Source: Oscillatoriales cyanobacterium M59_W2019_021
Lineage (GTDB): Bacteria; Cyanobacteriota; Cyanobacteriia; Cyanobacteriales; Geitlerinemataceae
Reading direction: 5' to 3'
Assembly (NCBI GenBank): GCA_015295945.1
Contig: DVED01000121.1
Span: 1 to 38,508 of the forward strand
Length of the DNA: 38,508 bases
Part shown: positions 10,887 to 38,508 of the stretch, one piece after another
Layout: each line of letters opens with the position of its first letter
How positions within the stretch are numbered: position 1 is the first letter of the stretch
The notes under the pieces: generated by a model
The model's input: the letters and a program-made list of their open reading frames with translations, nothing else
Told to the model about the DNA's origin: nothing
Database searches by the model: none
Position numbers and translations under genes: made by a program

Positions 10887-11251
10887 TACTCTCACACCTG
10901 CTCTTGTCTTTAAAGTTTTGTGACGCTAGCCAAGATTTTTAGGTTCCCTCTATACATAGATCGATTCATGCAACTGTTCGATCGGTCACCATTTTTATAC
11001 AAAATCCTGCCAAGACCTATCTTAGCATCGGCAGGTTAAAGCGACATTAAAGTCTGCGATCGCCATCGGGGTGACATCTCGAAAGCCGCAAAGCGTCCAT
11101 CGGACATAGGATAGACGAGTTTTCAGGAACTCCAAGTCGAACCGTTACCCCCCACGGATAGGATCGCATGGCATTCGCACTGCTAGATCTAGCGTGGCGA
11201 CGTCAGTCCTCGTTTTTAGCGTTCGGGAAATCCGAACTATACAAACAGGCT
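10887..11251. other. Divergent intergenic region
   Basis: Separates the porin (leftward) from the sulfide block (rightward). I see no gene. A 'cctgcc...ggcagg' imperfect inverted repeat at about 11008-11036 lies upstream of the porin and may be part of its promoter or leader. The rest is unremarkable. Confidence 0.5.
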
Positions 11252-11271
11252 ATATTGTTATATAGTAATAT
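11252..11271 (+). promoter_or_regulatory. Candidate ArsR-type operator 1
   Basis: A 20-base imperfect palindrome, ATATTnnTATATAnnAATAT, 26 bases before the GTG start of the metallo-hydrolase. Its right half TATATAGTAATAT (11259-11271) matches 12720-12732 in 12 of 13 bases, upstream of the arsR gene. AT-rich palindromes overlapping the promoter are usual targets of SqrR/BigR-type repressors; assignment to the local ArsR protein is inference. Confidence 0.6.
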
Positions 11272-11297
11272 TAAAGGCAGCCGCAGAGGTAACAATC

Positions 11298-11990
11298 GTG
11301 TTCTTTCGACAACTTTTCGATCCAGAAACCAGTACCTATACTTATTTGATTGCCGATCGCCCGACCCGATCCGCGATCCTCGTCGATCCAGTATTGGAGC
11401 AGGTAGAGCGAGATCTGCAACTGCTCCGAGAACTGGGACTGACGCTGAAATACTGTCTGGAGACCCACATCCATGCCGACCATATTACCGGAACGGGGAA
11501 ACTGCGAGAGGCGACGGGTTGCTTGGGAATCGTCCCGGAAAATGCCAAAGCTCAATGTGCCGATCGTTTTCTCAAAGACGGGGACATTTTGGAAATAGGA
11601 AGCGTGAAGGTAGAGGCGATTGCCACCCCCGGTCATACGGACAGCCACAACGCCTATTTGGTCGATGGCACGCACTTGCTCACCGGAGATGCCCTACTCA
11701 TTCGCGGTTGCGGGCGGACGGACTTCCAAAGCGGGGACGCCGGAACCTTGTACGATGTCATTACCCAAAAACTATTCGCCCTTCCCGATGAAACCTTCGT
11801 GTATCCCGGTCACGATTATCGAGGTCATACAGTATCTACTATTGGCGAAGAAAAACAGTGGAACCCCCGAATTGTCGATCGCACCCGTCGCGAGTTTATC
11901 GAATTCATGGCGAACCTCAATCTTCCCGATCCGAAAAAGATAATGGCAGCCGTCCCCGCGAACGAGCGTTGCGGTCGTGTTGCCGTATAA
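11298..11990 (+). CDS. Persulfide dioxygenase-like MBL-fold hydrolase (ETHE1/Blh type)
   Basis: A 230-residue metallo-beta-lactamase-fold protein. The metal site is clear: H57xH59xD61H62 ('THIHADH'), H113 ('PGHTDSH'), D131 ('LLTGDALL') and the final His in 'YPGHDY' near 174. 'GRTDFQSGD' at 139-147 is the signature separating ETHE1/persulfide dioxygenases, which oxidise glutathione persulfide to sulfite, from glyoxalase II. The start is GTG 11298 behind AGAGGT at 11285-11290. It is first in a rightward run with the rhodanese and arsR genes. Only the MBL half of Blh is present; a DUF442 half is encoded separately at 14653-15084. Confidence 0.9.
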   Translation: MFFRQLFDPETSTYTYLIADRPTRSAILVDPVLEQVERDLQLLRELGLTLKYCLETHIHADHITGTGKLREATGCLGIVPENAKAQCADRFLKDGDILEIGSVKVEAIATPGHTDSHNAYLVDGTHLLTGDALLIRGCGRTDFQSGDAGTLYDVITQKLFALPDETFVYPGHDYRGHTVSTIGEEKQWNPRIVDRTRREFIEFMANLNLPDPKKIMAAVPANERCGRVAV

Positions 11991-12037
11991 CAACACTCTC
12001 AATTCATCAACCCTAACTTTTCACAAAATTGACCTTT

Positions 12038-12574
12038 ATGCTGACTTCCAATCCGATCGAATTGCAAACCATTGATGCCCGGACTTTGAAACAATTGCTC
12101 GATCGACAAGCGGTAACGCTTATCGACGTGCGCGAACCCGGAGAATATGCCGGGGAACATATCCCCGGAGCGACTCTGGTTTCTCTCTCCAATTTTGACC
12201 CCAACCAAATTCCCCAACAAGATGGAAAAATGATCGTTCTTTACTGTCAGTCGGGGACTCGATCGAAAACAGCAGCCCAAAAACTCCTCGACGCCGGATT
12301 TCCCACGGTCACTCAACTCGCATCGGGTCTGAATGCGTGGAAAGACGCTAAATATCCTACAGTTGTCGATCGTAAGGCTCCCATTAGTTTGATGCGCCAA
12401 GTGCAAATTGTGGCAGGTTCTTTAGTTTTCCTGGGAACGGTATTAGGGGCATTTGTTTCGCCCGGATTTCTCGTTCTCAGTGGTTTTGTCGGTGCGGGAT
12501 TGATGTTTGCTGGGATCACCGATACTTGTCTGTTGGGAATGCTGCTGGCGAAGCTCCCTTACAACCAAAAATAG
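12038..12574 (+). CDS. Membrane-anchored rhodanese (YgaP-like sulfurtransferase)
   Basis: A 178-residue protein with a rhodanese domain (about 8-112) whose active-site Cys70 sits in CQSGTR, the persulfide-carrying loop. It is followed by a DUF2892-like hydrophobic hairpin (about 125-165) ending 'GMLLAKLPYN', as in E. coli YgaP. It should transfer sulfane sulfur at the inner face of the membrane. I chose ATG 12038 over an in-frame TTG at 12029. It lies 47 bases after the dioxygenase, so persulfide made there or by SQR could be passed along. A strong terminator follows. Confidence 0.92.
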   Translation: MLTSNPIELQTIDARTLKQLLDRQAVTLIDVREPGEYAGEHIPGATLVSLSNFDPNQIPQQDGKMIVLYCQSGTRSKTAAQKLLDAGFPTVTQLASGLNAWKDAKYPTVVDRKAPISLMRQVQIVAGSLVFLGTVLGAFVSPGFLVLSGFVGAGLMFAGITDTCLLGMLLAKLPYNQK

Positions 12575-12590
12575 CACTGAGGCTCGTTCC

Positions 12591-12619
12591 ATCCCACGCT
12601 CGATCGGCGTGGGATTTTT
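12591..12619 (+). terminator. Rho-independent terminator after the rhodanese gene
   Basis: ATCCCACGC, seven-base loop, GCGTGGGAT is a perfect nine-pair stem followed by a five-T run (12615-12619). It separates the dioxygenase-rhodanese transcript from arsR, which then needs its own promoter. Confidence 0.85.
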
Positions 12620-12718
12620 AGTAGGTCGTTCGTCAGTCGTTCAATTCTCGATCGATCTCAAATCGATAGTCAAGCTTAAGAGACATTTTCCCGTTCGCGA
12701 AAGAATCTAGTATACTAA

Positions 12719-12733
12719 CTATATAGAAATATA
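12719..12733 (+). promoter_or_regulatory. Candidate ArsR-type operator 2 (autoregulation)
   Basis: CTATATAGAAATATA, with an eight-base palindrome core CTATATAG, 24 bases before the arsR ATG. It shares TATATAGnAATAT with operator 1, which suggests that the regulator controls itself and the dioxygenase operon. Confidence 0.55.
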
Positions 12734-12757
12734 AGTTGTACCCTAAATTTCTCCGGA

Positions 12758-13117
12758 ATGTCCAAGACGCTTTCTCAGAAAAATACGCCAGAAGTCCTCG
12801 CTCCCGTTGCCGATTATTTCAAAGTCCTCTCAGAAACCAGTCGCTTGCAAATTTTAAGCTGCCTGAGAAATGGAGCGATGAACGTTACCGAAATCGGCGA
12901 AGAAACGGGCTTGGGGCAGGCGAATCTCTCCAAACATTTAAAAGTTTTAACCCAGGCAGGTTTGGTTTCCCGACAGCCCCAAGGCGTCAGCGTTTACTAC
13001 GAAATTTGCGATCCGATGATTTTCGATTTGTGCGAATTCGTGTGCGATCGCATCAGCCAACAACTTCAAAAGCGGGCGAAAGAATTTGAGAAGATGTCAG
13101 CCTTCAAAAATCGCTGA
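12758..13117 (+). CDS. ArsR/SmtB-family repressor, SqrR/BigR-like
   Basis: A 119-residue winged-helix regulator. The recognition helix is visible in 'TGLGQANLSKHLKVLTQAGLV' (50-70), then the wing 'RQPQGVSVYYEI'. Cysteines are at 35, 84, 92 and 96. C35 in 'ILSCLRNG' and one of C92/C96 near the C-terminus match the spacing of the redox pair in SqrR/BigR (C41 and C107 in Rhodobacter SqrR), which links through a polysulfide bridge when persulfides rise and releases DNA. The usual metal-binding ELCVCDL motif of SmtB/ArsR is absent. Neighbouring sulfur-oxidation genes support a sulfide-sensing role (inference). Confidence 0.88.
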   Translation: MSKTLSQKNTPEVLAPVADYFKVLSETSRLQILSCLRNGAMNVTEIGEETGLGQANLSKHLKVLTQAGLVSRQPQGVSVYYEICDPMIFDLCEFVCDRISQQLQKRAKEFEKMSAFKNR

Positions 13118-13191
13118 GATCGCTGAGATTTACTATTTTTCGATCGCCCTCTCGAAAAAAGTGGCTGGGGAGTTTTCTCACTCCCTCTTCA

Positions 13192-14178
13192 CTAAACATT
13201 CGCTTCCCAACGACGCGCACCCCTTGCCCGACGAATATCTCGCCAAATTTGCGTCGCCGCCAACGCCCCATCTCCCGCCGCGATAACAACTTGATTTAAT
13301 CCAACTTTCAAGTCTCCAATGGCAAAAATGCGCGGATGGGAAGTCCGACACATTTTATCGGTTGCAAGATTGCCCCCTTGCATCTCCAGGTTCAATTCTT
13401 GAAGATAACTATTGTGATAGCGGGAACCCATTGAAATTAGACCCGTTTCTAACTCAACGATCGAACCATCCACTAATTCTACACCTGTCATTTGATGGTT
13501 CTGTCCCAAGAATTGCCGAATCGGCGTTTCGACCAACGGATAACCGTGTTCCCGAAGTTTCTGGCGCATTGGCGGACTCACCTCAAACGTGCCGTGAGTG
13601 AAGACGGTAATGTAAGGTGTAAACCAGCTTAGATTGAACGCCATTTCTTCAATACTGGCTTCGCTTCCGGCAATTAAACCGCATTTTTTATCGGTCATTT
13701 CATAGCCATCGCAGACCATACAAACGTGGAGATTATACCCGGCATAGTCGTAAACATTTCGCATTTCTTCTAAAGGCGGCAAATGGTCGATAATGCCACT
13801 TGCCGCAATTAAATATCGAGTGCGGAATGTGGCAAAAAGGCTATTGACGCGCCCCACTTTTACCTTGACAGCGAAGGTTTCCCCTTCGTCTACCACTTCC
13901 TCAACGTAAGCGTTGAGAAAATCGCCATCCAAAGAAGCGTAATGTTCTTTGCCTTGCTGTAATAATACTTTTCCGGGAGTATCGGGTGGCAAGCCGAGAT
14001 AATTATGTAGCTCTTGCATCCAGAAAGAACGAGCTTTGCCTTTGTCAATAATTAAACTCGAAAGGCGAAAACGCTGCAAGTAAATGCCCGCAGACAGTCC
14101 TCCTGCACCGCCCCCGATAACGATCGCATCGTAAATATAATTTGTCCGGTTTTGAAGATTTTGTTTGGAGAGTTGCAT
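13192..14178 (-). CDS. NAD(P)/FAD-dependent oxidoreductase, thioredoxin reductase-like
   Basis: A 328-residue flavoprotein convergent with arsR. The FAD dinucleotide motif is 'IVIGGGAGGLSAG' (19-31). The redox pair C153-C156 lies in 'CMVCDGYE', placed as in thioredoxin reductase (CATCDG). 'RIFAIGDLKVGLNQVVIAAGDGALAA' near the C-terminus is the second FAD contact. The NAD(P) site 'GLIAGSEAS' lacks the usual GGGDSA form, so donor preference is uncertain. A role in reducing thioredoxin-like or persulfidated partners is plausible beside sulfur genes but unproven. Confidence 0.87.
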   Translation of the reverse strand: MQLSKQNLQNRTNYIYDAIVIGGGAGGLSAGIYLQRFRLSSLIIDKGKARSFWMQELHNYLGLPPDTPGKVLLQQGKEHYASLDGDFLNAYVEEVVDEGETFAVKVKVGRVNSLFATFRTRYLIAASGIIDHLPPLEEMRNVYDYAGYNLHVCMVCDGYEMTDKKCGLIAGSEASIEEMAFNLSWFTPYITVFTHGTFEVSPPMRQKLREHGYPLVETPIRQFLGQNHQMTGVELVDGSIVELETGLISMGSRYHNSYLQELNLEMQGGNLATDKMCRTSHPRIFAIGDLKVGLNQVVIAAGDGALAATQIWRDIRRARGARRWEANV

Positions 14179-14187
14179 CGCGAACCT

Positions 14188-14200
14188 CTCTAATTTAGAG
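14188..14200 (-). promoter_or_regulatory. Palindrome over the ribosome-binding site
   Basis: CTCTAATTTAGAG is a perfect 13-base palindrome ending nine bases before the ATG of the flavoprotein gene. Its gene-proximal end overlaps the AGAGG likely used as ribosome binding site (minus strand, 14185-14189). It could be an operator or a small masking hairpin. Confidence 0.4.
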
Positions 14201-14325
14201 TAAAAAGCAGAGGGCAGAGGACAGAAGGAAAAAGGTTGAACGGTCTGGGTTTTCAGTTATGCTTTTTTCCTAACTCTCCTGTCCACTGCTATAAATCAAT
14301 GAATCAGTAGATTGGGAAACGAATG

Positions 14326-14473
14326 ATAGCAACAGCCACTCGGGTTAGGACATGGCGACTGAGCGAAGACTGGGCGTAGCATTTGCATAAACATTGTCGG
14401 TTAGTGGACAAGATTATCGGGCAAATGCTACGCCCCTACCCAAATTTTTCCTAACGGGTATGGCAACTGCTAT
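14326..14473. mobile_element. MITE-like nested palindromic element
   Basis: About 148 bases with two nested inverted repeats. The outer arms are 14326-14350 (atagcaacagcc...gttagga) and 14449-14473 (tcctaac...ggcaactgctat), imperfect. The inner arms, 14372-14386 and 14421-14435 (gggcgtagcatttgc), are a perfect 15-base pair with a 34-base loop. There is no coding capacity. This is the architecture of non-autonomous elements in filamentous cyanobacteria. Confidence 0.65.
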
Positions 14474-14598
14474 AGTAGGAATTGCATGGGTTTGTCTTCG
14501 ATATTTGCTGGCAAAAACTTTTCCGCAAATCTACTGAACTGGGATTGAAATTTTTCAAGTTTTAACTTTGTTTCGATATCCCGGCAGATACAGGGATA

Positions 14599-14630
14599 AT
14601 GGTGCGTTACGCTCCGCCAACACACCCTAC
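14599..14630. repeat. Dispersed 'ggtgcgtt...caacacaccctac' repeat, copy 2
   Basis: Matches the element at 6146-6177 at both ends and sits directly before the 21-nt repeat (14632-14652). The spacer is a stack of at least three repeat types. Confidence 0.65.
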
Positions 14631-14631
14631 A

Positions 14632-14652
14632 TATGGAGGCGTTGCGTAAGTC
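14632..14652. repeat. 21-nt dispersed repeat, copy 2
   Basis: Identical to 8544-8564. It abuts the stop codon of the DUF442 gene, which ends at 14653 on the minus strand. Confidence 0.75.
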
Positions 14653-15084
14653 CTAAGAGAGATAGCTTTCGATCGCCTGTTTGAACTGCGGATTGGCTGC
14701 AAAATCAAATCCTAATTGTTTCCCAGTTTCTAAAACTCGGTCTACTGTCATTTTCTGGCGATCGGCGTCATAAAGTAAGGCAATAAATGCAGCTCTCATT
14801 CCGCTTTTACAGTGAATCAAAGTAGGTTTGTCAAGTCGATCGAGTTCTCGGACGATCTGCTCGATGCGATCGACATCGAGCGAAGCTGGCGTTAGGGGAG
14901 TATGGAGGTAGGTCAGTCCGGCAGTTTCGACAAGCTGTTGTTCGGTCTCCAAAAAACCGTCTTCGTTGGCAGAGCGGAGATTCAACACGGATTTAAATTC
15001 CGTATCTGCTAATTGCTGTACCTGTTCTGGAGTGAGTTGACCTTGAACTGAAAGTCGATCGTCAATTTTAATGATATTTTCCAT
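14653..15084 (-). CDS. DUF442 phosphatase/sulfurtransferase-like protein (Blh N-domain type)
   Basis: A 143-residue protein tyrosine phosphatase-fold protein starting MENIIKIDDRLSVQGQL. The active loop is H91-C92-KSGM-R97. The Cys-to-Arg spacing is four residues, as in rhodaneses and DUF442, not the five of classical phosphatases. DUF442 is the domain fused in front of the MBL domain in Blh of Xylella and Agrobacterium, whose bigR-blh operon oxidises hydrogen sulfide. Here the partner domain is the separate gene at 11298-11990. I chose ATG 15084; upstream codons in frame overlap the Rieske gene. It is in the same direction as the Rieske gene, 107 bases after it. Confidence 0.88.
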   Translation of the reverse strand: MENIIKIDDRLSVQGQLTPEQVQQLADTEFKSVLNLRSANEDGFLETEQQLVETAGLTYLHTPLTPASLDVDRIEQIVRELDRLDKPTLIHCKSGMRAAFIALLYDADRQKMTVDRVLETGKQLGFDFAANPQFKQAIESYLS

Positions 15085-15191
15085 GTAGATTTCTCTTTGA
15101 GTTTTGCTGAGACTAAATGCAGTTTTCAAAAGTTCGATCGCCCTTTTTTCCACCCATTTAAACGTTCGAGATTGAATCGAGGACAGCAATC

Positions 15192-15725
15192 CTAAACCCA
15201 CCAAGGTTGTTTGCCCGTCCGGGGATCGTTTTCCGTCCAAGGTGCAATCCGGATGTACTCTCCCGCCAACGTCACCCGAACTAGTTTGAGGGGAAGTGGA
15301 GCCGGACCGCGGACCACGTTTCCATCCGCATCGTAGCGAGACCCGTGACAGGGACATTGGAATTGATTCTCGTTGGGGTTCCACGGAAACGTACAACCTA
15401 AATGGGTACAGTTATCGACGATTCCCCAAGGATGGAGCGTGCCATCTTCCCGAAGGGTCAGGTACGTGGGTTCTGCGGCTAAACCCGCCACTAAGGCACG
15501 AGTGCCCGGTGCTTCTGCCAAAATTTGACTCGCGGGAATGAGATTGCCATTGATATCTTTGGCGAGAATCGAACCGTCTTCGCCGACTTCTGCGGGTGCG
15601 GCAAAGAACTTTGCCGCCGGGTAGAGCACGGTGCCCGCTGTGGTGGCGACAACCGCACCCGTGAGAAAGTTAAGCAATTGTCGCCTCGACAGGGAGGGAC
15701 TTTCCAGAGGAAGACTCTCGGACAT
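15192..15725 (-). CDS. petC: Cytochrome b6f-type Rieske iron-sulfur protein (extra PetC)
   Basis: A 177-residue Rieske protein. An N-terminal 'SRRQLLNFLTGAVVATTAGTVLYP' segment anchors it in the membrane. The 2Fe-2S ligands are C106/H108 ('CTHLGC') and C124/H127 ('CPCHGSRY'), with C111-C126 as the stabilising disulfide. Length and the 'GPAPLPLKLVRV' tail fit PetC of the b6f complex. No petA lies beside it, although the usual location is a petC-petA operon, so this is probably an alternative isoform. Its promoter faces the SQR gene, suggesting a role when sulfide electrons enter the quinone pool (inference). Confidence 0.9.
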   Translation of the reverse strand: MSESLPLESPSLSRRQLLNFLTGAVVATTAGTVLYPAAKFFAAPAEVGEDGSILAKDINGNLIPASQILAEAPGTRALVAGLAAEPTYLTLREDGTLHPWGIVDNCTHLGCTFPWNPNENQFQCPCHGSRYDADGNVVRGPAPLPLKLVRVTLAGEYIRIAPWTENDPRTGKQPWWV

Positions 15726-16046
15726 GACTGGATACCTCTGTATTGTAGGTTTGCGAACGTTGTTTACATTTCTATAATATAACTAATTAGCGATTTAGTC
15801 AATTAAGAGATCGAAATTCCCAACTCGGCATCCTGTGCGCCGGAGATCGATCGCGAAGAGGCAAGTCGGCACGGCTATAGAGGGCGAGCCAATCGAATCG
15901 CGGGACAAAAATAATTAACTAGTTTCCCATTTGGTTAAATAATGACATAATGAGAACAAGCCAAACCGTTTGGTAAAAGACAGGGGTTGTAGGGTAACGC
16001 TTTTGGAGCGATCCCGCACCAGTTTCGATCGCTCGGAGTCATGAAT
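15726..16046. other. Divergent promoter region between Rieske and SQR genes
   Basis: About 320 bases without a gene. Near the Rieske start is the motif at 15766-15782. Nearer SQR, 'ggttaaataatgacataatgag' (15934-15955) is AT-rich and may contain its -10 region. GGAG at 16035-16038 is the SQR ribosome binding site. Confidence 0.6.
15766..15782 (-). promoter_or_regulatory. Candidate ArsR-type operator 3
   Basis: On the minus strand this reads TTATATTATAGAAATGT, about 41 bases before the Rieske ATG. TATAGAAATGT differs by one base from TATAGAAATAT in operator 2. It may serve both divergent genes. Confidence 0.45.
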
Positions 16047-17378
16047 ATGGCACATATTGTCATCTTGGGAGCAGGTATTGGCGGATTGCCAACTGCTTAT
16101 GAATTGCGGCATTTGTTGCCGAAATCCCATCGCATCACCCTCATTTCAGACAATCCCAAATTTACGTTTATTCCCTCCCTGCCGTGGGTGGCGTTCGATT
16201 TAACTCCCCTAGACAAGATTCAACTAGATCTCAAACATCTTCTGCGGGGACGGGGTATCGATTGGGTGCAGGGGAAAGTCAGCGAGATCGATCCCCACTG
16301 TCAAACGATCGAAGTTGCCGGAGAAATCCTCAGTTACGACTACGCCGTCATTGCCACGGGAGCCTCGCTCGCCTTAGATGCCGTACCGGGATTGGGACCG
16401 GAGACGGGTTATACTCAATCCGTTTGCAATCCCCATCATGCGTTGTTGGCGAGAGCGGCTTGGCGCGAGTTTTTAGAGTATCCGGGTCCTCTCGTTGTGG
16501 GAGCCGTGCCGGGAGCGAGTTGTTTCGGACCTCTGTATGAGTTTGCTCTGCTGGCGGATTACGTGTTGCGGAAACGGGGATTGCGTCACCGGGTGCCGAT
16601 TTCTGTGGTGACGCCGGAACCCTATGCGGGTCATTTAGGCATTGGCGGCATGGCAAACTCTGCGGAACTCGTGACTCAAATGCTACGGCAGCGAGAAATT
16701 GAATGTATTGAAAATGCAGCGATTACCGAGATTAGTCGCCATCAAATTCACGTAGCGGGAGGTCGGATTTTGCCGTTTCAATACTCCATGGTACTTCCCC
16801 CATTTCAAGGTGCGGCATTTTTGCGATCGGCAAAAGGATTAACCGATGAAAAAGGATTCGTCCCGATTTTACCGACCTATCGACATCCCGACTTTCCGTC
16901 AATTTATAGCTTGGGCGTCGCCGTGCAATTAACGCCACCGGAAAAAACACCCATCCCTATTGGCGTTCCCAAAACCGGACAAATGACAGAAGCGATGGGC
17001 ATGGCGGTCGCGCATAATATTGCTAGGGAATTAGGCGCGATTTCAGATGCTCCCGTGACACCCACTTTGGAAGCCATTTGTATGGCAGATTTTGGCAACA
17101 CGGGAATTATTTTTATTGCCGCTCCGGTGTTACCCGACTTAGTGACGGGAAAACGGCGACAATCGATCGCGCGTCAGGGTCGGTGGGTGAGTTGGATCAA
17201 GATGGCGTTTGAGAAATTCTTTCTGATGAAAATGCGCTGGGGGATGTCCGTTCCCTGGTTCGAGCGTTGGGGTTTGCAAATTTTGGGTTTATCTTTAGTG
17301 GAACCCATTTCAGAGGAGTCGATCCCAGAGGTACAATTAGTTCCGGTTAATTCAGCATTACTGAAACGGAAAATCTAG
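16047..17378 (+). CDS. sqr: Sulfide:quinone oxidoreductase
   Basis: A 443-residue membrane-associated flavoprotein that oxidises sulfide to sulfane sulfur and reduces quinone. The N-terminal FAD motif is 'VILGAGIGGLPTAYEL'. The three catalytic cysteines are present: C127 ('SVCNPHH'), C159 ('GASCFGP') and C345 ('AICMADF'). 'GVPKTGQMTEAMGMAVAHNIA' and the amphipathic C-terminal end after 'VPWFERWGLQ' fit cyanobacterial SQRs. I chose ATG 16047 because GGAG (16035-16038) is eight bases before it; ATG 16041 is too close. It leads a rightward run with the DUF3122 and SulP genes. Confidence 0.94.
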   Translation: MAHIVILGAGIGGLPTAYELRHLLPKSHRITLISDNPKFTFIPSLPWVAFDLTPLDKIQLDLKHLLRGRGIDWVQGKVSEIDPHCQTIEVAGEILSYDYAVIATGASLALDAVPGLGPETGYTQSVCNPHHALLARAAWREFLEYPGPLVVGAVPGASCFGPLYEFALLADYVLRKRGLRHRVPISVVTPEPYAGHLGIGGMANSAELVTQMLRQREIECIENAAITEISRHQIHVAGGRILPFQYSMVLPPFQGAAFLRSAKGLTDEKGFVPILPTYRHPDFPSIYSLGVAVQLTPPEKTPIPIGVPKTGQMTEAMGMAVAHNIARELGAISDAPVTPTLEAICMADFGNTGIIFIAAPVLPDLVTGKRRQSIARQGRWVSWIKMAFEKFFLMKMRWGMSVPWFERWGLQILGLSLVEPISEESIPEVQLVPVNSALLKRKI

Positions 17379-17429
17379 ATAATCGTAACAACGAGCGATA
17401 GTTGCTGTTAAGAGCCAAAGGATAAGACC

Positions 17430-17963
17430 GTGAAATCAAGTTTAATAAAAGATCGAATTCGACGAATTTTATCCCTGATATTACTCGCGGTAACGATCGC
17501 GATTTTAATGTGTGTGGGAGTTGGGACATTTAACCTTCCCTCGGCTGCGGCGGCAATTCAAGTTTTGGAAGAATCCCCCGATCGCATCCTGTATCAATCC
17601 AGACACAAATTTCAAGACAATCGGGGGAATGCTTGGCAAGTCGTATTTTTCAAACGGGTTGAAGCGGACGAATCTCCGAGTCTTAATTTACGGCTGGTGG
17701 CTTTTCCAGGGACAGCCGATTTTGCCCATCCCCAGCCTTTGAAAATTAAAACCAAAACCGGGAAACAGTTTGAGGCAGAAGATCTCTTTGCTGAGGCAGC
17801 ACCGACTGCCAACGTCGGTCAATATAATTTGGAAAATATCTTAGATCGATTGCCCAGCTTTGCCTCGATCGATCTCGTGACGACGATGAAGGACGATCGA
17901 ACGGTAGCGCTCAAAATCCCGTCAGAAGTCATTTTAGAATGGCAAACCATTGCGGGTTATTAA
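17430..17963 (+). CDS. DUF3122 secreted protein
   Basis: A 177-residue protein with a signal peptide or anchor at about 10-42 ('ILSLILLAVTIAILMCVGV', then 'PSAAAAI'). The mature part matches the cyanobacterial DUF3122 pattern: 'ILYQSRHKFQDNRGNAWQVVFFKRV', 'LRLVAFPG', 'AHPQPLKI', 'NVGQYNLENIL' and the closing 'VILEWQTI'. Function unknown. It lies 51 bases after sqr and 26 before the SulP gene, so it is likely an exported accessory of this operon. I recall a similar sqr-hypothetical-transporter order in the Synechocystis suo operon, which needs checking. Confidence 0.82.
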   Translation: MKSSLIKDRIRRILSLILLAVTIAILMCVGVGTFNLPSAAAAIQVLEESPDRILYQSRHKFQDNRGNAWQVVFFKRVEADESPSLNLRLVAFPGTADFAHPQPLKIKTKTGKQFEAEDLFAEAAPTANVGQYNLENILDRLPSFASIDLVTTMKDDRTVALKIPSEVILEWQTIAGY

Positions 17964-17989
17964 TAACGAGATCGAGAGGGTAAAAATCG

Positions 17990-19780
17990 ATGACGTTTAA
18001 ATCTCTGATCGATTCGATTCTGGAAAAATTGCAAGTCGATCGATTAAAGCGTTACATTCCCATTCCCGAATGGTTATTTCGCTATCAATCGGAATATCTA
18101 GTTGGGGATATTATCGCGGGGATTATCGTCACCAGTTTGCTCGTTCCGCAAAGTATGGCATACGCACTGCTGGCGGGATTGCCTCCTCAAATTGGACTCT
18201 ATGCGAGTATGCTGCCGGCGATACTCTATCCGTTGCTGGGTAGCAGTCGGGTTTTAGCAGTGGGTCCGGCGGCAGTGGACTCGCTGATGGTAGCAACGGC
18301 ACTGGGAAAACTCGAACCGCAAAATACGCCAGAGTATCTTATTCTTGCACTAACCCTCACATTTTTAATTGGCTGTATTGAAATCTTAATGGGCGTGTTG
18401 CGGTTGGGTTTTTTAGTCAATTTTCTCAGTCATGCGGTTATTTCCGGGTTCATTAGTGGTGCAGCAACGATTATTGCGATCGGTCAAATCAAGCATTTAT
18501 TCGGCTTAAAAATTTCCAATACAGAATCGCTCTTCACCTTAGTTCTATCCATTTTTAGAACGATTGATCGCACCAATTGGGTTGCTTTAGGTTTGGGATT
18601 GGGAAGTATTGCAATTTTGCTATTTTTTAATTATCCACTAGTCAAATGGCTCAAACGACGAAGATGGAGCGATCGAGCGATTCTTCCTGTTTCTAAAAGT
18701 GCGCCATTACTAGTGGTTATCGTCGGGACATTATTAGTTTGGGCATTGCATCTTGATCGTGCAGCAGGCGTAAAAGTTGTGGGAGATATTCCTTCGGGAT
18801 TGCCTCATTTTAGTTTTCCGATCTTCGATTTATCCACTTTAGAAACTCTTTTACCGATCGCATTAGCTATTAGTTTAGTCGGTTATTTAGAAGGTTTTGC
18901 CGGAGCCCAATCTTTAGCTCGAAAACGACGAGAAAAGGTGAGTGCGAATCGAGAATTTATCGCGCTGGGTGTTGCTAATTTAGGAGCGGCTTTTAGCGGG
19001 GGGTATCCAGTAACGGGAGGTCTCGGTCGATCGGTGGTGAATTTTGCAGCGGGTGCGAATACTGGACTGGCATCGATAATTACGGGACTTTTAGTTATTG
19101 TCATCGTGATGTTTCTCACGCCAATGTTTTATTTTTTGCCCCAAACTTGCTTGGCAGCAATTATTATTATTGCCGTTTATAAACTTATCGATCTTGCCAC
19201 ATTTCGGCGAATGTGGTTATACGATAAAGCTGATGCAATCGCCTGGTTGACGACTTTTATTGCTGTTCTATTTGTGGGTGTCGAAAAGGGAATCTTGTTG
19301 GGAGCGATTGTGGCGTTAGTTCTGCATTTGTGGCGCACGAGTCATCCCCACATCGCGATCGTCGGACGTTTGGGAGAGACCGAACATTTTCGCAACGTGC
19401 TGCGGTACGACGTGAAAACTAGCCCCCAAGTTTTAGCCATTCGCGTGGATGAAAGTTTGTACTTTGCCAATGCAAAATATTTAGAAACGTATATTTTCAA
19501 TGCGATCGCCAATCGCGAAGCGACTCCGTTGGAGTATCGCCCGGACGTGAAAAAGATTTTACTGGTATGCAGTGCAATTAATCTTATCGATGCGAGTGCC
19601 TTAGAAATTTTAGAAAGCCTGATTTTTGACCTGAGACTGTTGGGAATTCAATTTTATATGTCTGAAGTCAAAGGACCGGTGATGGATAAGTTGAGAAAAA
19701 TTGGGTTTGTCGATTATTTAGGAGAAGAGCGAATCTTCTTATCGACCGATCGAGCCATGCGCGAATTAGCTGGGATTTAG
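17990..19780 (+). CDS. SulP-family anion transporter with STAS domain
   Basis: A 596-residue transporter with a long multi-spanning part (about 30-430). It starts with the family signature 'DIIAGIIVTSLLVPQSMAYALLAGLPPQIGLYAS' at 37-70 and ends in a cytosolic STAS domain (about 470-590, 'CSAINLIDASALEILESL'). SulP proteins carry sulfate, bicarbonate or other anions. Following sqr by one gene, it could export or import oxidised sulfur; direction and substrate are not visible. The 'INLIDASALEIL' site has Ser where STAS phosphorylation residues lie. The 3' end overlaps an antisense gene remnant. Confidence 0.92.
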   Translation: MTFKSLIDSILEKLQVDRLKRYIPIPEWLFRYQSEYLVGDIIAGIIVTSLLVPQSMAYALLAGLPPQIGLYASMLPAILYPLLGSSRVLAVGPAAVDSLMVATALGKLEPQNTPEYLILALTLTFLIGCIEILMGVLRLGFLVNFLSHAVISGFISGAATIIAIGQIKHLFGLKISNTESLFTLVLSIFRTIDRTNWVALGLGLGSIAILLFFNYPLVKWLKRRRWSDRAILPVSKSAPLLVVIVGTLLVWALHLDRAAGVKVVGDIPSGLPHFSFPIFDLSTLETLLPIALAISLVGYLEGFAGAQSLARKRREKVSANREFIALGVANLGAAFSGGYPVTGGLGRSVVNFAAGANTGLASIITGLLVIVIVMFLTPMFYFLPQTCLAAIIIIAVYKLIDLATFRRMWLYDKADAIAWLTTFIAVLFVGVEKGILLGAIVALVLHLWRTSHPHIAIVGRLGETEHFRNVLRYDVKTSPQVLAIRVDESLYFANAKYLETYIFNAIANREATPLEYRPDVKKILLVCSAINLIDASALEILESLIFDLRLLGIQFYMSEVKGPVMDKLRKIGFVDYLGEERIFLSTDRAMRELAGI

Positions 19781-21453: not shown

Positions 21454-22005
21454 ATGTTCGATCGAAAGCTAGGTGTTAGGGTGCAAACCCCCCGCGTTGC
21501 GTCCCCCAAGTTAGACTGTACCCGACTGCGAGACTTGCTGGCGGCGGCACGATGGCAGGATGCCGACGCAGAAACCCGGCGTCTGATGGTGCGAGCGATC
21601 GATTTGCCGGAGGAAGCGTATTTTACCGAACGCGAATTTCTCCAATTTCCCCAGAAATCGCTATCGATTCTCGATCGCCTGTGGCGTGACTATAGCGGCG
21701 ATCGCTTCGGCTTTAGCATCCAGAACCAAATTTGGCGGCAAATCGGCGGCTGGCATCCGGATGCCAACTACGACACCTGGTTGCAATTCGGTCGGCAAGT
21801 GGGTTGGTTGCGTGGCTGCTGGCTATCTCCAGAGGAACTCACCTTCGACTTGAACGCACCCGCCGGACATCTTCCCGCCGCTTGGACGGAAGAATTCGAG
21901 TTAGGAGAGATCGCGCTGAGTTTGTGGGCGCGGATGGAGACGTTTGTATTCAATGAGACAATATACTGTGGGGATCGAGCGGATTCCCCGAATCCGCCGC
22001 CATAG
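21454..22005 (+). CDS. GUN4 domain-containing protein
   Basis: A 183-residue protein whose residues 22-145 form a GUN4 domain: 'LRDLLAAARWQDADAETRRLM', 'LDRLWRDYSGDRFGFSIQNQIW', 'FGRQVGWLRGCWLSPEELTFDLNAPAGHLP'. GUN4 proper binds porphyrins and stimulates Mg-chelatase; cyanobacteria have many extra GUN4-domain proteins of unknown role. I chose ATG 21454 over TTG 21439. It is divergent from the LCP gene by 47 bases and 31 bases before egtD, so the two rightward genes may be cotranscribed. Confidence 0.88.
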   Translation: MFDRKLGVRVQTPRVASPKLDCTRLRDLLAAARWQDADAETRRLMVRAIDLPEEAYFTEREFLQFPQKSLSILDRLWRDYSGDRFGFSIQNQIWRQIGGWHPDANYDTWLQFGRQVGWLRGCWLSPEELTFDLNAPAGHLPAAWTEEFELGEIALSLWARMETFVFNETIYCGDRADSPNPPP

Positions 22006-22036
22006 CACCCCATTGCTCCATCTCAATCCAGAATCG

Positions 22037-23074
22037 ATGCAAGTTTCAAAGCTTTCGCCTGCCAATGTCGCTCCTCAAACTGCTTGCCGTGTTGGAGAAC
22101 GCTTACAATTAGAGTTCCTCCGGTCACCCGATCGCCCTTCGCCGCAAACTGAAGGACGCGACGTGGTTGAGGGGTTGTGCCAAACCCCGAAATCCGTTCC
22201 ACCTCGCTACTTCTACGACGATCGCGGATCGCAACTGTTCGAGGAAATTTGTCACTTACCGGAATACTACCCCACTCGCACGGAAACGGCAATTCTGCGC
22301 AACTGTGCCGGAGAAATTGCCCGCCTGACCGGACCGTGCGAATTAGTGGAATTGGGCAGCGGCAGTTCGACGAAAACCCGCTTGTTGTTGGATGCGTATT
22401 CTCAGTGGGGACAGTCGGCTCGTTACGTTCCCATCGACGTCAGCGGCGGTATTTTGGAGTCGAGCGCTCGCAGTTTGCTGGCGGAATATCCCCATCTTCA
22501 AGTGTGCGGTTTGGTGGGGACTTACGAGGCGGCTCTGTCCCATTTGCAGCCGACGACGATGCCAACCCGGACGATCGCCTTTCTCGGCAGCACGTTGGGA
22601 AATCTGACTCCGGAAGAGTGCGATCGCTTTTTCGCGCAAGTTTCCGAAGTGCTGCAACCGGGCGAGTATTTTCTGTTAGGAATCGATTTGCAAAAACCGA
22701 TCGAGATTTTAGAAGCGGCATATAACGATGCCAGCGGCGTAACCGCAGAATTCAACTTAAATATGCTGCGCCATCTCAACCATCGTTTTCAGGGCAATTT
22801 CGATCTCGACGGCTTCGAGCATCGGGCATTTTATAACGAAGATTCGCACCAAATTGAAATGCACTTATGCAGTCGGCGATCGCAATCGGTCTGTTTGTCG
22901 GACTTGGATCTCTCTATTAACTTTGCCCCTGGAGAAACGATGCTCACGGAAATTTCCCGCAAGTTCGACTTAGCCCAAATGCAGGAGTATTTGAAAAAAC
23001 GCGAACTTCTGACAGTGGGGGTTTGGTGCGATCGAAATGATTGGTTTGGCGTCTTGTTGTGCCAGCGGCATTAG
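22037..23074 (+). CDS. egtD: L-histidine N-alpha-methyltransferase
   Basis: A 345-residue SAM-dependent methyltransferase that converts histidine to hercynine, the first step of ergothioneine synthesis. The family signature 'PPRYFYDDRGSQLFEEI' lies at 55-71 and 'PEYYPTRTE' at 75-83. The SAM loop 'VELGSGSSTKTRLLLDA' is at 104-120, and 'IAFLGSTLGNLTPEE' follows. I chose ATG 22037; an upstream in-frame start overlaps the GUN4 gene. No egtB sulfoxide synthase lies nearby, although it is the usual partner, so it must be elsewhere or the enzyme acts differently here. Confidence 0.93.
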   Translation: MQVSKLSPANVAPQTACRVGERLQLEFLRSPDRPSPQTEGRDVVEGLCQTPKSVPPRYFYDDRGSQLFEEICHLPEYYPTRTETAILRNCAGEIARLTGPCELVELGSGSSTKTRLLLDAYSQWGQSARYVPIDVSGGILESSARSLLAEYPHLQVCGLVGTYEAALSHLQPTTMPTRTIAFLGSTLGNLTPEECDRFFAQVSEVLQPGEYFLLGIDLQKPIEILEAAYNDASGVTAEFNLNMLRHLNHRFQGNFDLDGFEHRAFYNEDSHQIEMHLCSRRSQSVCLSDLDLSINFAPGETMLTEISRKFDLAQMQEYLKKRELLTVGVWCDRNDWFGVLLCQRH

Positions 23075-36646: not shown

Positions 36647-38508
36647 TTACCAAGGACTGCCCACCATTGTAAAGCCCGACCAATAGTACGGATGAGAGAG
36701 AGCGCGATCGTTGGTATCGGCTAACTCGGGCGGTAGGGGAACACTACCGTCGGCTTCGACGAGTTCGCCATTGCGGACGCGCAGTTCTCCCCGCAACATC
36801 GCCAGTTGCGCTTGTCGCAGGGCTTCAGCTTTTGTGGCAATGCCCGCTTGTTGGAGTTTTTGGTAAAATTCCGCCATCAATCCTAACGTGCCTTCGTCGC
36901 TGACATACCACAAACTAGCGAGAACGGATTTCACCCCAGCTTGGACGGCGAATCCGGCAAAACCCAATTCCGAATCCCCATCGCCGACAGCAGTGCGGCA
37001 AGCACTCAACACCAGCAAATCGACAGGGTAATCGTTCCAACCTAATTCCCGCAAGCGATCTAAGCCCAGTTTGCGATCCCAAAACTGGATATAAGAATTT
37101 TCCGGTTTTCCCGCTTGAAATTCGGCGTGGGTTGCCAGGTGAACGATGCGGTAGCGGCTGGAGTTGCGCTGTTCTTTAAGGTTTTCCAGGGTAAAGGCTT
37201 CGTTGAGGAAGGCTTTTCCGGGCCAAATTCCCTCGATCGGGCGATCGGGAACTAATGCCGATCCTCTAACGATGGTGGAGAGTTCGATGGGAACGGCAGG
37301 CAAGGGGATCTGATCGCGGAACTGACTGGCGCCCATGGCTAACACGCGGCTGCCTCGCAACGGTTGATAGCTGGTATCGGTGAGGTTGATGCTGGGAATC
37401 AGTCCTAGGCTGTATTTTTCGATGAGGAATTGCTTTCCATCGTGCAAAGCGGCGATCGGCAGGGTGCGCAGTCCTTCATCCATAGAAAAGACCAAAGTGT
37501 CCGCCCCCACCCGTTGTAGTTCGGGTTCTAAAGGGGCGATGAGCCATTGATAGAGTTGTTGGGCGGAGGCGAGATAGCTGGTGGTGTTCCGTTGGCGCGG
37601 ATTGGTTAAATTTCGGCGCAATTCTTTCATAACAGGCATCAGCGCTTCGCGATTGGCGTCAGGAACACTAGCATAAATCCGCTCTCCCGTTGGGGCGATC
37701 GCGATTAAATCCAGTTGTTCCGGACGGGCGAGGACGTAAATAATCACCGACGTTTGCCCGGTTTGTTCGGCAATATCCATCAGGCGATCTTGAAAATGGG
37801 ATGCTGAGAGCAAAGTCGGACTGGAATTGCGGCGCGAGACGCTTCTGACCTGGGTGACATAAGACCCTTCTAGGGTGTTGATCGCCCCATCTACATCCCC
37901 AGATGCCAAATTCTCCTCGACGGCAGCGAGGGTGGCGGTTGGGGTTACAGTTCCACTACTACTAACCGTTCGGCTGGGTGTTGTGGTGGTGACGGTTGTA
38001 TTGCGGTTGGTCGTATTCGCAGCCGAGCCGGACGTTCGAGAACCCGATGTGTTCGATGTTGAGTTAGAGGTTGAACCGGACGAACTGGATGTGCCCGCAC
38101 TTCCGGTGGTGGATGTTGGAGAATCGATCGTTGTGGATACGATCGTGGTGGTGGTCGTCGAGGATGTGGTGCTGCGGGTCGTGGTCGTTGTTGTTCTCAC
38201 TGTGCCAGTTGAGGTAATGTTACTCGTACTGGACGATGACGTGACGATCGTCCTGGAACCCGAACTCGGTGTCGGTTCAAAGCCACTCGAGGTATCGGTA
38301 ACCGGATCGTCCACGACGGGCGTTTCCGTATTAGTGTTGTTGGGAACGCTGGGGGTTTGGATGTCAGTCGAGATTTGGTTGCTATCTCGGGGAGTCGGGG
38401 TTGGCGTTGATTGCTGGGTGTTCGGGTCGGTTCCATCGCCAGTCGTTCCATCGCCGGGATTGGTCGTTCCATCGCCAGTCGTTCCATCGCCGGGATTGGT
38501 CGTTCCAT
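36647..38508 (-). CDS. CHAT-domain cysteine protease-like protein, N-terminus outside window
   Basis: The frame is open to the right edge, so at least 620 residues are visible and the start is missing. The C-terminal half is a CHAT domain: the catalytic His is in 'HLATHAEF' (codon 37127-37129) and Cys in 'LSACRTAVGD' (codon 36998-37000), followed by 'GFAGFAVQAGVKSVLASLWYVSDEGT'. In front lies a Ser/Thr/Gly linker of about 130 residues, and before it a 36-base repeat coding GTTNPGDGTTGD, twice complete and once begun (38430-38508). CHAT proteins are caspase-like proteases. Cyanobacterial ones often follow secreted haemagglutinin-like or TPR parts; that part is not in view. Confidence 0.9.
   Translation of the reverse strand, partial: GTTNPGDGTTGDGTTNPGDGTTGDGTDPNTQQSTPTPTPRDSNQISTDIQTPSVPNNTNTETPVVDDPVTDTSSGFEPTPSSGSRTIVTSSSSTSNITSTGTVRTTTTTTRSTTSSTTTTTIVSTTIDSPTSTTGSAGTSSSSGSTSNSTSNTSGSRTSGSAANTTNRNTTVTTTTPSRTVSSSGTVTPTATLAAVEENLASGDVDGAINTLEGSYVTQVRSVSRRNSSPTLLSASHFQDRLMDIAEQTGQTSVIIYVLARPEQLDLIAIAPTGERIYASVPDANREALMPVMKELRRNLTNPRQRNTTSYLASAQQLYQWLIAPLEPELQRVGADTLVFSMDEGLRTLPIAALHDGKQFLIEKYSLGLIPSINLTDTSYQPLRGSRVLAMGASQFRDQIPLPAVPIELSTIVRGSALVPDRPIEGIWPGKAFLNEAFTLENLKEQRNSSRYRIVHLATHAEFQAGKPENSYIQFWDRKLGLDRLRELGWNDYPVDLLVLSACRTAVGDGDSELGFAGFAVQAGVKSVLASLWYVSDEGTLGLMAEFYQKLQQAGIATKAEALRQAQLAMLRGELRVRNGELVEADGSVPLPPELADTNDRALSHPYYWSGFTMVGSPW

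Follow-up and report, generated by a model that had tools for sequence, protein, structure and literature searches.

A probable sulfide-responsive gene island with its own ArsR-family repressor and linked electron-chain genes in an Oscillatoriales cyanobacterium

Contig DVED01000121.1 of Oscillatoriales cyanobacterium M59_W2019_021, analyzed here over 38,508 nucleotides (the 38.5-kb window), carries nine genes between positions 11298 and 19780 that probably form an island responsive to sulfide or sulfane sulfur, under the control of its own ArsR repressor and joined by linked parts of the electron-transport chain. The genes encode a metallo-beta-lactamase (MBL) protein that we assign to the persulfide dioxygenases (PDO), a rhodanese, the ArsR protein, a flavoprotein identified below as a diflavin-linked disulfide oxidoreductase (DDOR), a DUF442 protein, a Rieske protein, a sulfide:quinone oxidoreductase (SQR), a DUF3122 protein and a SulP transporter. 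An earlier reading, made from the letters alone (the sequence-only reading), had named nine such families and joined them in one pathway. All nine open reading frames (ORFs) are present, their Pfam families agree with those named, and the five proteins that were compared by sequence (SQR, PDO, ArsR, flavoprotein and DUF442) also match solved relatives. The Rieske protein (as PetC), the ArsR protein (as the general ArsR/SmtB subfamily) and SulP pass NCBIfam cut-offs; none of the PDO, SQR, DDOR and DUF442 proteins reaches one. To this picture we add an operator-like palindrome, a psbA gene outside the window, and the finding that the Rieske protein is of the PetC2 type, a variant already known beside sqr.

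A 20-bp palindrome, ATATTACTATATAGTAATAT, was returned by a palindrome finder at widths of 16–24 from the upstream regions of 42 arsR genes sharing 50% or more identity with that of the window. At width 20, a site scoring above 0 is present in 38 of these 42 regions. The matrix was started with the site before the window's arsR gene (one of the 42) and then re-estimated without the window. When the re-estimated matrix is run over the 38.5-kb window, its four top matches occupy the three promoter gaps of the island, an arrangement with a probability of 3e-7 over the whole window and 1e-4 over intergenic DNA. In 100 Markov resamplings of the window, the top score had a mean of 8.6 bits, a 95th percentile of 13.4 and a maximum of 16.2. 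Because the shuffle maxima reach this high, only the site before PDO stands clear of them; its first base, 11252, is also the left edge that the sequence-only reading had drawn. For the second and third sites the support comes from where they lie; the fourth, which scores about the mean of the shuffle maxima, is weak. Across the genome (150 of 648 candidates scored), matches at E ≤ 10 span 0.37 to 9.6. They comprise the arsR site, a site close to an ABC transporter gene, one before a psbA gene on a different contig and, matched on either strand, the PDO site, which is the best of those scored (E 0.37). A 13-base core, with at most one mismatch allowed, has five matches in the genome against two for a reversed control pattern, and two of the five, including the sole exact match, lie in the island. 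Genome-wide significance is weak, and the argument for an operator therefore rests on position and on relatives. Promoter-like pairs overlap the PDO site (11238–11266) and the weaker SQR site (15915–15951), and the site at 15777–15796 lies inside such a pair for the Rieske gene (15802–15774). These hexamers fit the placement of a repressor and are no commoner than in shuffles; neither the promoter nor the terminator scan of the window gave an excess.

In relatives, a site of at least 10 bits, scored with the same matrix, is found upstream of SQR in 37 of 53 cases, ArsR in 15 of 25, psbA in 11 of 19 and PetC2 in 15 of 42. For PDO the count is 17 of 18, a figure partly tied to the training set, since in some loci (for example L016) arsR and PDO are divergent and one site may serve both. 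The background is 3% in random windows drawn from these loci and 16 of 610 in the upstream regions of other ORFs. Few sites precede rhodanese (0/17), SulP (0/4), DUF3122 (1/26), Tll0287-like (0/25), TauE (1/14) or DDOR (1/9) genes, as would be expected for genes inside operons. Duplicate loci (L014, L020, L024, L030, L031) were removed from these counts, and near relatives such as L101, L104, L105 and L106 were retained. In the sqr-arsR-DUF3365-DUF3122 cluster on pSYSM of Synechocystis, a site of 22.1 bits lies some 33 bp upstream of sqr. On pAQ7 of Synechococcus PCC 7002, a 12.1-bit site precedes DUF2892-petC2, and none was found directly before sqr.

The operator-like site also occurs about 55 bp upstream of a divergent psbA gene on another contig of the same genome (L276:358-1446). 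A search at E ≤ 1e-60 gave one other psbA in the genome, with which this gene shares 70% identity. At two positions taken to mark a low-oxygen D1, the divergent gene has A and L, and so have 17 of the 19 psbA genes in relatives' loci. Eleven of these 17 have a site of at least 10 bits and six do not; the two genes with G and F instead (L019, L026) are both without one.

By sequence, the SQR is assigned to type I. Its closest PDB entries, 3sz0/3kpk (E 1e-98) and 3hyv (E 3e-95), are far ahead of all others and are, we assume, type I SQRs. Residues Cys129, Cys161 and Cys347 are kept in 53/53, 53/53 and 54/54 aligned matches, and the similar PCC 7002 enzyme (63.6% identity) is termed type I in the passages cited (PMC7042703). 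The Rieske protein, 47% identical to the genome's other PetC, fits the PetC family of the cytochrome b6f complex and is classed as PetC2-type; the CTHLGC/CPCHGS cluster ligands are intact in 42/42 relatives, and the PetC anchor is present. We searched 386 cyanobacterial genomes, of which 34 carry type I SQR and 33 a PetC2-type Rieske protein (both at E ≤ 1e-60), 40 carry DDOR (41 places) and 93 carry PDO (99 places; both at E ≤ 1e-80). Type I SQR and PetC2 co-occur in 18 genomes (p 3e-13) and in 14 of 142 genera (p 9e-8), and type I SQR and DDOR in 18 genomes (p 3e-11) and 13 genera (p 3e-6), kinship being ignored throughout. For all 34 SQR genes, window included, about 9 kb was examined to the left and to the right; one side is shorter at contig ends in L102, L103, L108, L113 and L117, and L133 carries an SQR fragment. 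Within about 10 kb of SQR lie ArsR in 20 loci, DUF3122 in 14, PetC2 in 8, DDOR in 7, PDO in 7, SulP in 3 and DUF442 in 1; in six loci none of the other eight island genes was found. PetC2 does not adjoin SQR in 26 loci, and six of these (L151, L152, L154, L155, L156, L159) have PDO-rhodanese nearby. The view that the island's genes belong together is supported by this recurrence of its modules across cyanobacteria. A Tll0287-like protein, absent from the window's island, is often encoded beside SQR and DUF3122 (15 loci, 14 of them SQR loci; examples are L108, L111, L116, L118, L124, L125, L127 and L132).

The flavoprotein had been read as thioredoxin reductase-like, an assignment that we reject because its nearest solved relatives are DDORs. 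Its best PDB matches are Slr0600 (5jri, E 5e-130; 60% identity) and Gll2934 (5n0j, E 7e-119; 55% identity), and the next-best is at 4e-29. Like both of these, it has the family's CxxC motif, kept at 153/156 in 9/9 aligned matches. According to passages of two papers, DDORs neither use NADPH nor reduce thioredoxin, and their acceptors are still to be identified (PMC8566235, PMC9025218). The second of these, a 2022 review, gives PrxII and PerR as the most prevalent neighbors and leaves the targets open (PMC9025218); an SQR-linked branch does not appear in the passages cited. In a tree of all 41 DDOR places there are two supported halves, of 20 and 21 rows. In one, 7 of 20 rows have SQR at a distance of about 2 kb or less, and the peroxiredoxin-like gene is absent throughout; in the other, SQR is absent and 12 of 21 rows have a peroxiredoxin-like gene, accompanied in six of them by a PerR-like gene (p 0.003 for SQR and 5e-5 for the peroxiredoxin-like gene; one representative each of the peroxiredoxin-like and PerR-like proteins was checked, and both fall below NCBIfam cut-offs). 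All seven SQR-linked rows are among the 11 that share 76% identity or more with the window protein (support 88/83, inside a 13-row clade with 100/100). Four of the 11 are without SQR within about 8 kb, one of them at a contig edge, which counts against a strict link. The window DDOR falls in this SQR-linked branch, which is apparently unstudied, whereas Slr0600 belongs with the peroxiredoxin-linked half, being 97.8% identical to one of its members. In one genome (G338, locus L106) the DDOR gene follows PetC2 by about 40 bp. We also considered a family-wide rule that DDOR lies beside sulfide genes; it was rejected, with SQR at 0/21 in the other half and 13/20 rows of the SQR half lacking it within about 8 kb.

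The MBL protein is identified by sequence as an ETHE1-like PDO. It is closest to PDB 4ysb, ETHE1 itself (4chl) matches over the full length, and His57, 59, 62, 113, 117 and 172, presumably the metal-binding residues, are invariant in 18/18 relatives. Of the 99 PDO places, 94 were examined (the other five belong to distant classes), 12 of them fused and 82 unfused. A rhodanese at least 50% identical to that of the window lies downstream of PDO in 55 of the unfused places. Within a limit of 5 kb, TauE is present in 60 of the 82, SulP in 8, both in none and neither in 14 (p 9e-6, kinship ignored), so that in relatives SulP occupies the slot of TauE after PDO-rhodanese. The simplest reading of this exchange is that SulP would export the PDO product, and it suggests a testable substrate for the window SulP. 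The sequence-only reading had suggested that SulP could move sulfite; the exchange supports this indirectly, but the window's own SulP lies 6.7 kb from PDO-rhodanese, behind SQR-DUF3122, and was counted under neither. With the two further SulP proteins of the genome (E ≤ 1e-20) it shares only 30% and 25% identity. DUF442 lies within 5 kb of PDO in 7 of the 82 places, and in the window the two are separate genes, with no Blh-type DUF442-PDO fusion. Long frames elsewhere had raised the suspicion of a PDO-SulP fusion. This was rejected, as the partner is, by eye, a flavoprotein-like N-terminal part. The 12 fused frames, of 354–806 amino acids (L171, L177, L195, L226, L227, L228, L230, L233, L235, L236, L237, L238), had no TauE or SulP within 6.5 kb; there is a weak rhodanese match in L227 and a DUF3122 gene in L195. 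They are possibly a separate persulfide system.

The repressor had been called SqrR/BigR-type, and it is not clearly of that type. Of its helix-5 cysteines, C92 is present in 42/42 relatives and C96 in 37/42; they sit about two turns and about one turn, respectively, before the helix-5 position expected for SqrR/BigR. The alpha-2 column that we equate with BigR Cys42 has Cys in 35/42 relatives. In the window it is Ser34, followed by Cys35, and the nearest SQR- or DDOR-linked relatives likewise have Ser, Ala or Thr and then Cys. The BigR equivalog NF040642 gives 39.5 bits, under its cut-off of 155. The protein may work like SqrR/BigR, but we do not assign it to that class. RexT is an ArsR protein with a redox Cys pair (PMC8960804); it senses H2O2.

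PCC 7002 SQR and PDO, expressed together in Escherichia coli, convert sulfide to sulfite and thiosulfate (PMC7042703, in part), and we carry this chemistry over to the island by homology. In the scheme that we propose, ArsR would sit, without a signal, on the palindromes over the PDO, arsR and PetC2/SQR promoters, and sulfide, or polysulfide made by SQR, would release it. SQR would then oxidize H2S and reduce plastoquinone, and the PetC2 Rieske protein would enter cytochrome b6f and pass the SQR electrons on, perhaps at low oxygen. Sulfane sulfur would be moved to low-molecular-weight thiols by the rhodanese, perhaps with DUF442; PDO would turn the persulfide into sulfite; and SulP, in place of TauE, would export the resulting anion. 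DDOR would oxidize thiols or persulfides and return the electrons to the membrane chain, and the divergent psbA elsewhere in the genome would be switched together with the island. We infer the effector of ArsR, the repression itself, the use of PetC2 with SQR, the SulP substrate, the DDOR reaction and the roles of DUF442 and DUF3122. A bolder proposal, which we put forward tentatively as possible rather than probable, is that a single ArsR-operator regulon acts as a cyanobacterial transcriptional switch from water to sulfide as electron source. D1 (the divergent psbA) and the Rieske protein (PetC2) would be swapped and SQR added, the DDOR branch would feed thiol or persulfide electrons into the plastoquinone pool as a second entry, and PDO disposal and anion export by SulP or TauE would complete the set. 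If true, this would give a first function to the uncharacterized half of the DDOR family. The way in which cyanobacteria move between oxygenic and sulfide-driven photosynthesis matters for the understanding of sulfidic mats and of the Proterozoic oceans. The site is short and portable, and the regulon is thus directly testable, with members predictable by genome scan; the SQR-linked DDOR branch, in turn, suggests a function for this flavoenzyme, the targets of which are left open in the passages cited from the 2022 review.

That the genes belong with one another, as the sequence-only reading proposed, is supported by recurrent neighborhoods and by the operator-like site shared by PDO, ArsR and Rieske/SQR. 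Several results weigh against the island reading, however. The second and third window sites score within the range of the shuffle maxima; no operator was found in the window before DDOR (−2.9 bits) or DUF442 (−5.4 bits); genome-wide E-values are weak, none being below 0.37, and with the candidates scored the list at E ≤ 10 does not contain the Rieske/SQR site. In relatives, 27 of 42 PetC2 and 8 of 19 psbA upstream regions are without a site. The window ArsR has no Cys at the column equated with the BigR alpha-2 position. The neighborhood search in other cyanobacteria that the sequence-only reading called for does find modules recurring, but the complete nine-gene set is in 1 of 34 loci, the window itself, and DUF442 adjoins SQR there alone. 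Fifteen of the 33 PetC2 genomes have no type I SQR, so PetC2 serves other conditions too, and the neighborhood and co-occurrence counts ignore common descent.

Other explanations deserve weighing. The island might be a low-oxygen or redox island, in which ArsR senses oxygen, peroxide or thiol redox and the sulfide genes are part of a microoxic program with the D1 variant and PetC2. The operator-bearing psbA genes, with the A and L taken as low-oxygen marks, are consistent with this, as are the psbA1-DUF2892-petC-rhodanese clusters induced under microoxic conditions (PMC5295598, in part) and the redox Cys pair of RexT (PMC8960804). We judge it unlikely, since the operator is most regular before PDO and SQR and less so before PetC2 and psbA. 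We regard as distinctly improbable a chance juxtaposition of two separately regulated units, a PDO-rhodanese unit for sulfane-sulfur detoxification and an SQR-PetC2 electron unit. Each module is found alone elsewhere, and a terminator-like hairpin follows the rhodanese gene; on the other hand, the same palindrome precedes both units, PDO lies within about 10 kb of type I SQR in 7/34 loci, and PetC2 lies within 5 kb of PDO in 7 of the 82 unfused places.

Finally, sqr and arsR of the Synechocystis suo type have been tied to arsenite, which raises the possibility of an arsenic or metalloid detoxification cluster. It would account for arsR beside sqr and for the same operator class in the suo cluster; Grim and Dick discuss the suo operon and arsB/arsC beside sqr2 (PMC5061849, in part). 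No gene of the nine matches the arsB, arsC, arsM or chrA families. We know of no arsenite role for PDO, rhodanese or SulP, and this explanation is very hard to credit.

The island has partial counterparts. The BigR operon, which we take to be ArsR, Blh (DUF442-ETHE1) and TauE, is similar in its ArsR, its DUF442 and PDO domains and its transporter. In the island, by contrast, DUF442 and PDO are separate, SulP stands for TauE, SQR-PetC2-DDOR is added and the ArsR cysteines are placed differently. The suo (sqr-arsR) operon on pSYSM of Synechocystis PCC 6803 shares an SQR of 53% identity, ArsR and DUF3122 neighbors and the same operator class before sqr; it differs in having chrA, DUF302 and DUF3365, and no PDO, rhodanese, DDOR, PetC2 or SulP is annotated in the 13 kb covered. 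PCC 7002 has type I SQR (64%), PDO and, on pAQ7, sqr near petC2-DUF2892, but its sqr (G0075) and pdo (A2866) are apart (PMC7042703, in part), sqr and petC2 are separated by an IS4 element, and neither DDOR nor SulP is annotated in the 13 kb of pAQ7 covered. In this strain polysulfide (H2Sn) induces psbA and petC, the petC copy not being stated in the passages cited (PMC12466478). Already published are sqr near arsR and psbA (PMC5061849) and, in metagenome-assembled genomes of Thermostichales, the Rieske gene petC2 flanking type I sqr (PMC11304991); the passages cited from the latter do not mention DDOR, PDO or an operator. Earlier work thus places sqr beside arsR, psbA or petC2, with no cis element tying them together in those passages. 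No account of the operator or of the SQR-linked DDOR branch came up in our search of the open-licence literature (SulP-for-TauE was not searched for).

Table 1. Features of the island, in window coordinates
Feature	Position	Strand	Evidence
Operator-like palindrome before PDO (ATATTGTTATATAGTAATAT)	11252–11271		25.2 bits, top window match
Persulfide dioxygenase (ETHE1-like MBL), by sequence	11298–11990	+	PDB 4ysb E 3e-84; ETHE1 4chl E 1e-70
Rhodanese, YgaP-like membrane anchor	12038–12574	+	PF00581 + PF11127 (run on 12035–12574)
Terminator-like hairpin after rhodanese	12591–12615	+	10-pair stem + T run; consensus scan only
Operator-like palindrome before arsR	12713–12732		13.4 bits, third in window
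ArsR/SmtB-family repressor	12758–13117	+	HTH_5; NF033788 above cut-off
DDOR, SQR-linked branch	13192–14178	−	PDB 5jri/5n0j; tree; CxxC 153/156
DUF442 / BLH_phosphatase protein	14653–15084	−	PF04273 above cut-off (longer frame run)
PetC2-type Rieske, genome's second PetC	15192–15725	−	NF045928 280 bits vs cut-off 250
Operator-like palindrome between Rieske and SQR	15777–15796		15.7 bits, second in window
Weaker operator-like site before SQR	15921–15940		8.4 bits, fourth in window
Type I SQR, by sequence	16041–17378	+	PDB 3sz0/3kpk/3hyv; 63.6% to PCC 7002 SQR
DUF3122 protein, N-terminal helix + beta-sandwich	17430–17963	+	PF11320 E 4e-47; model pLDDT 86.8
SulP anion transporter with STAS domain	17990–19780	+	TIGR00815 above cut-off

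Two gene starts call for comment. The rhodanese probably begins at the ATG at 12038. The DUF442 gene is taken in its shorter form, because the longer alternative, starting at a TTG, overlaps the Rieske gene; its product gives 59.9 bits with TIGR01244, under the cut-off of 85.85. For the AlphaFold model of the DUF3122 protein, Foldseek found no match in the PDB at E ≤ 0.001. A structural comparison by VIA gave a best Z of 8.1, to 3dtd, which may reflect nothing beyond a common arrangement.

The flanking genes lie outside this chemistry and encode an Rce1-like protease, an OprB porin, a LytR-CpsA-Psr protein and GUN4. About 2 kb to the right of the island, at 21944–23074, is a gene for an EgtD-like histidine-specific methyltransferase (Methyltransf_33); ergothioneine-type sulfur chemistry would add another thiol link. 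Further along, at 36647–38314, the window encodes a CHAT-domain protein whose long N-terminal region is rich in Ser and Thr.

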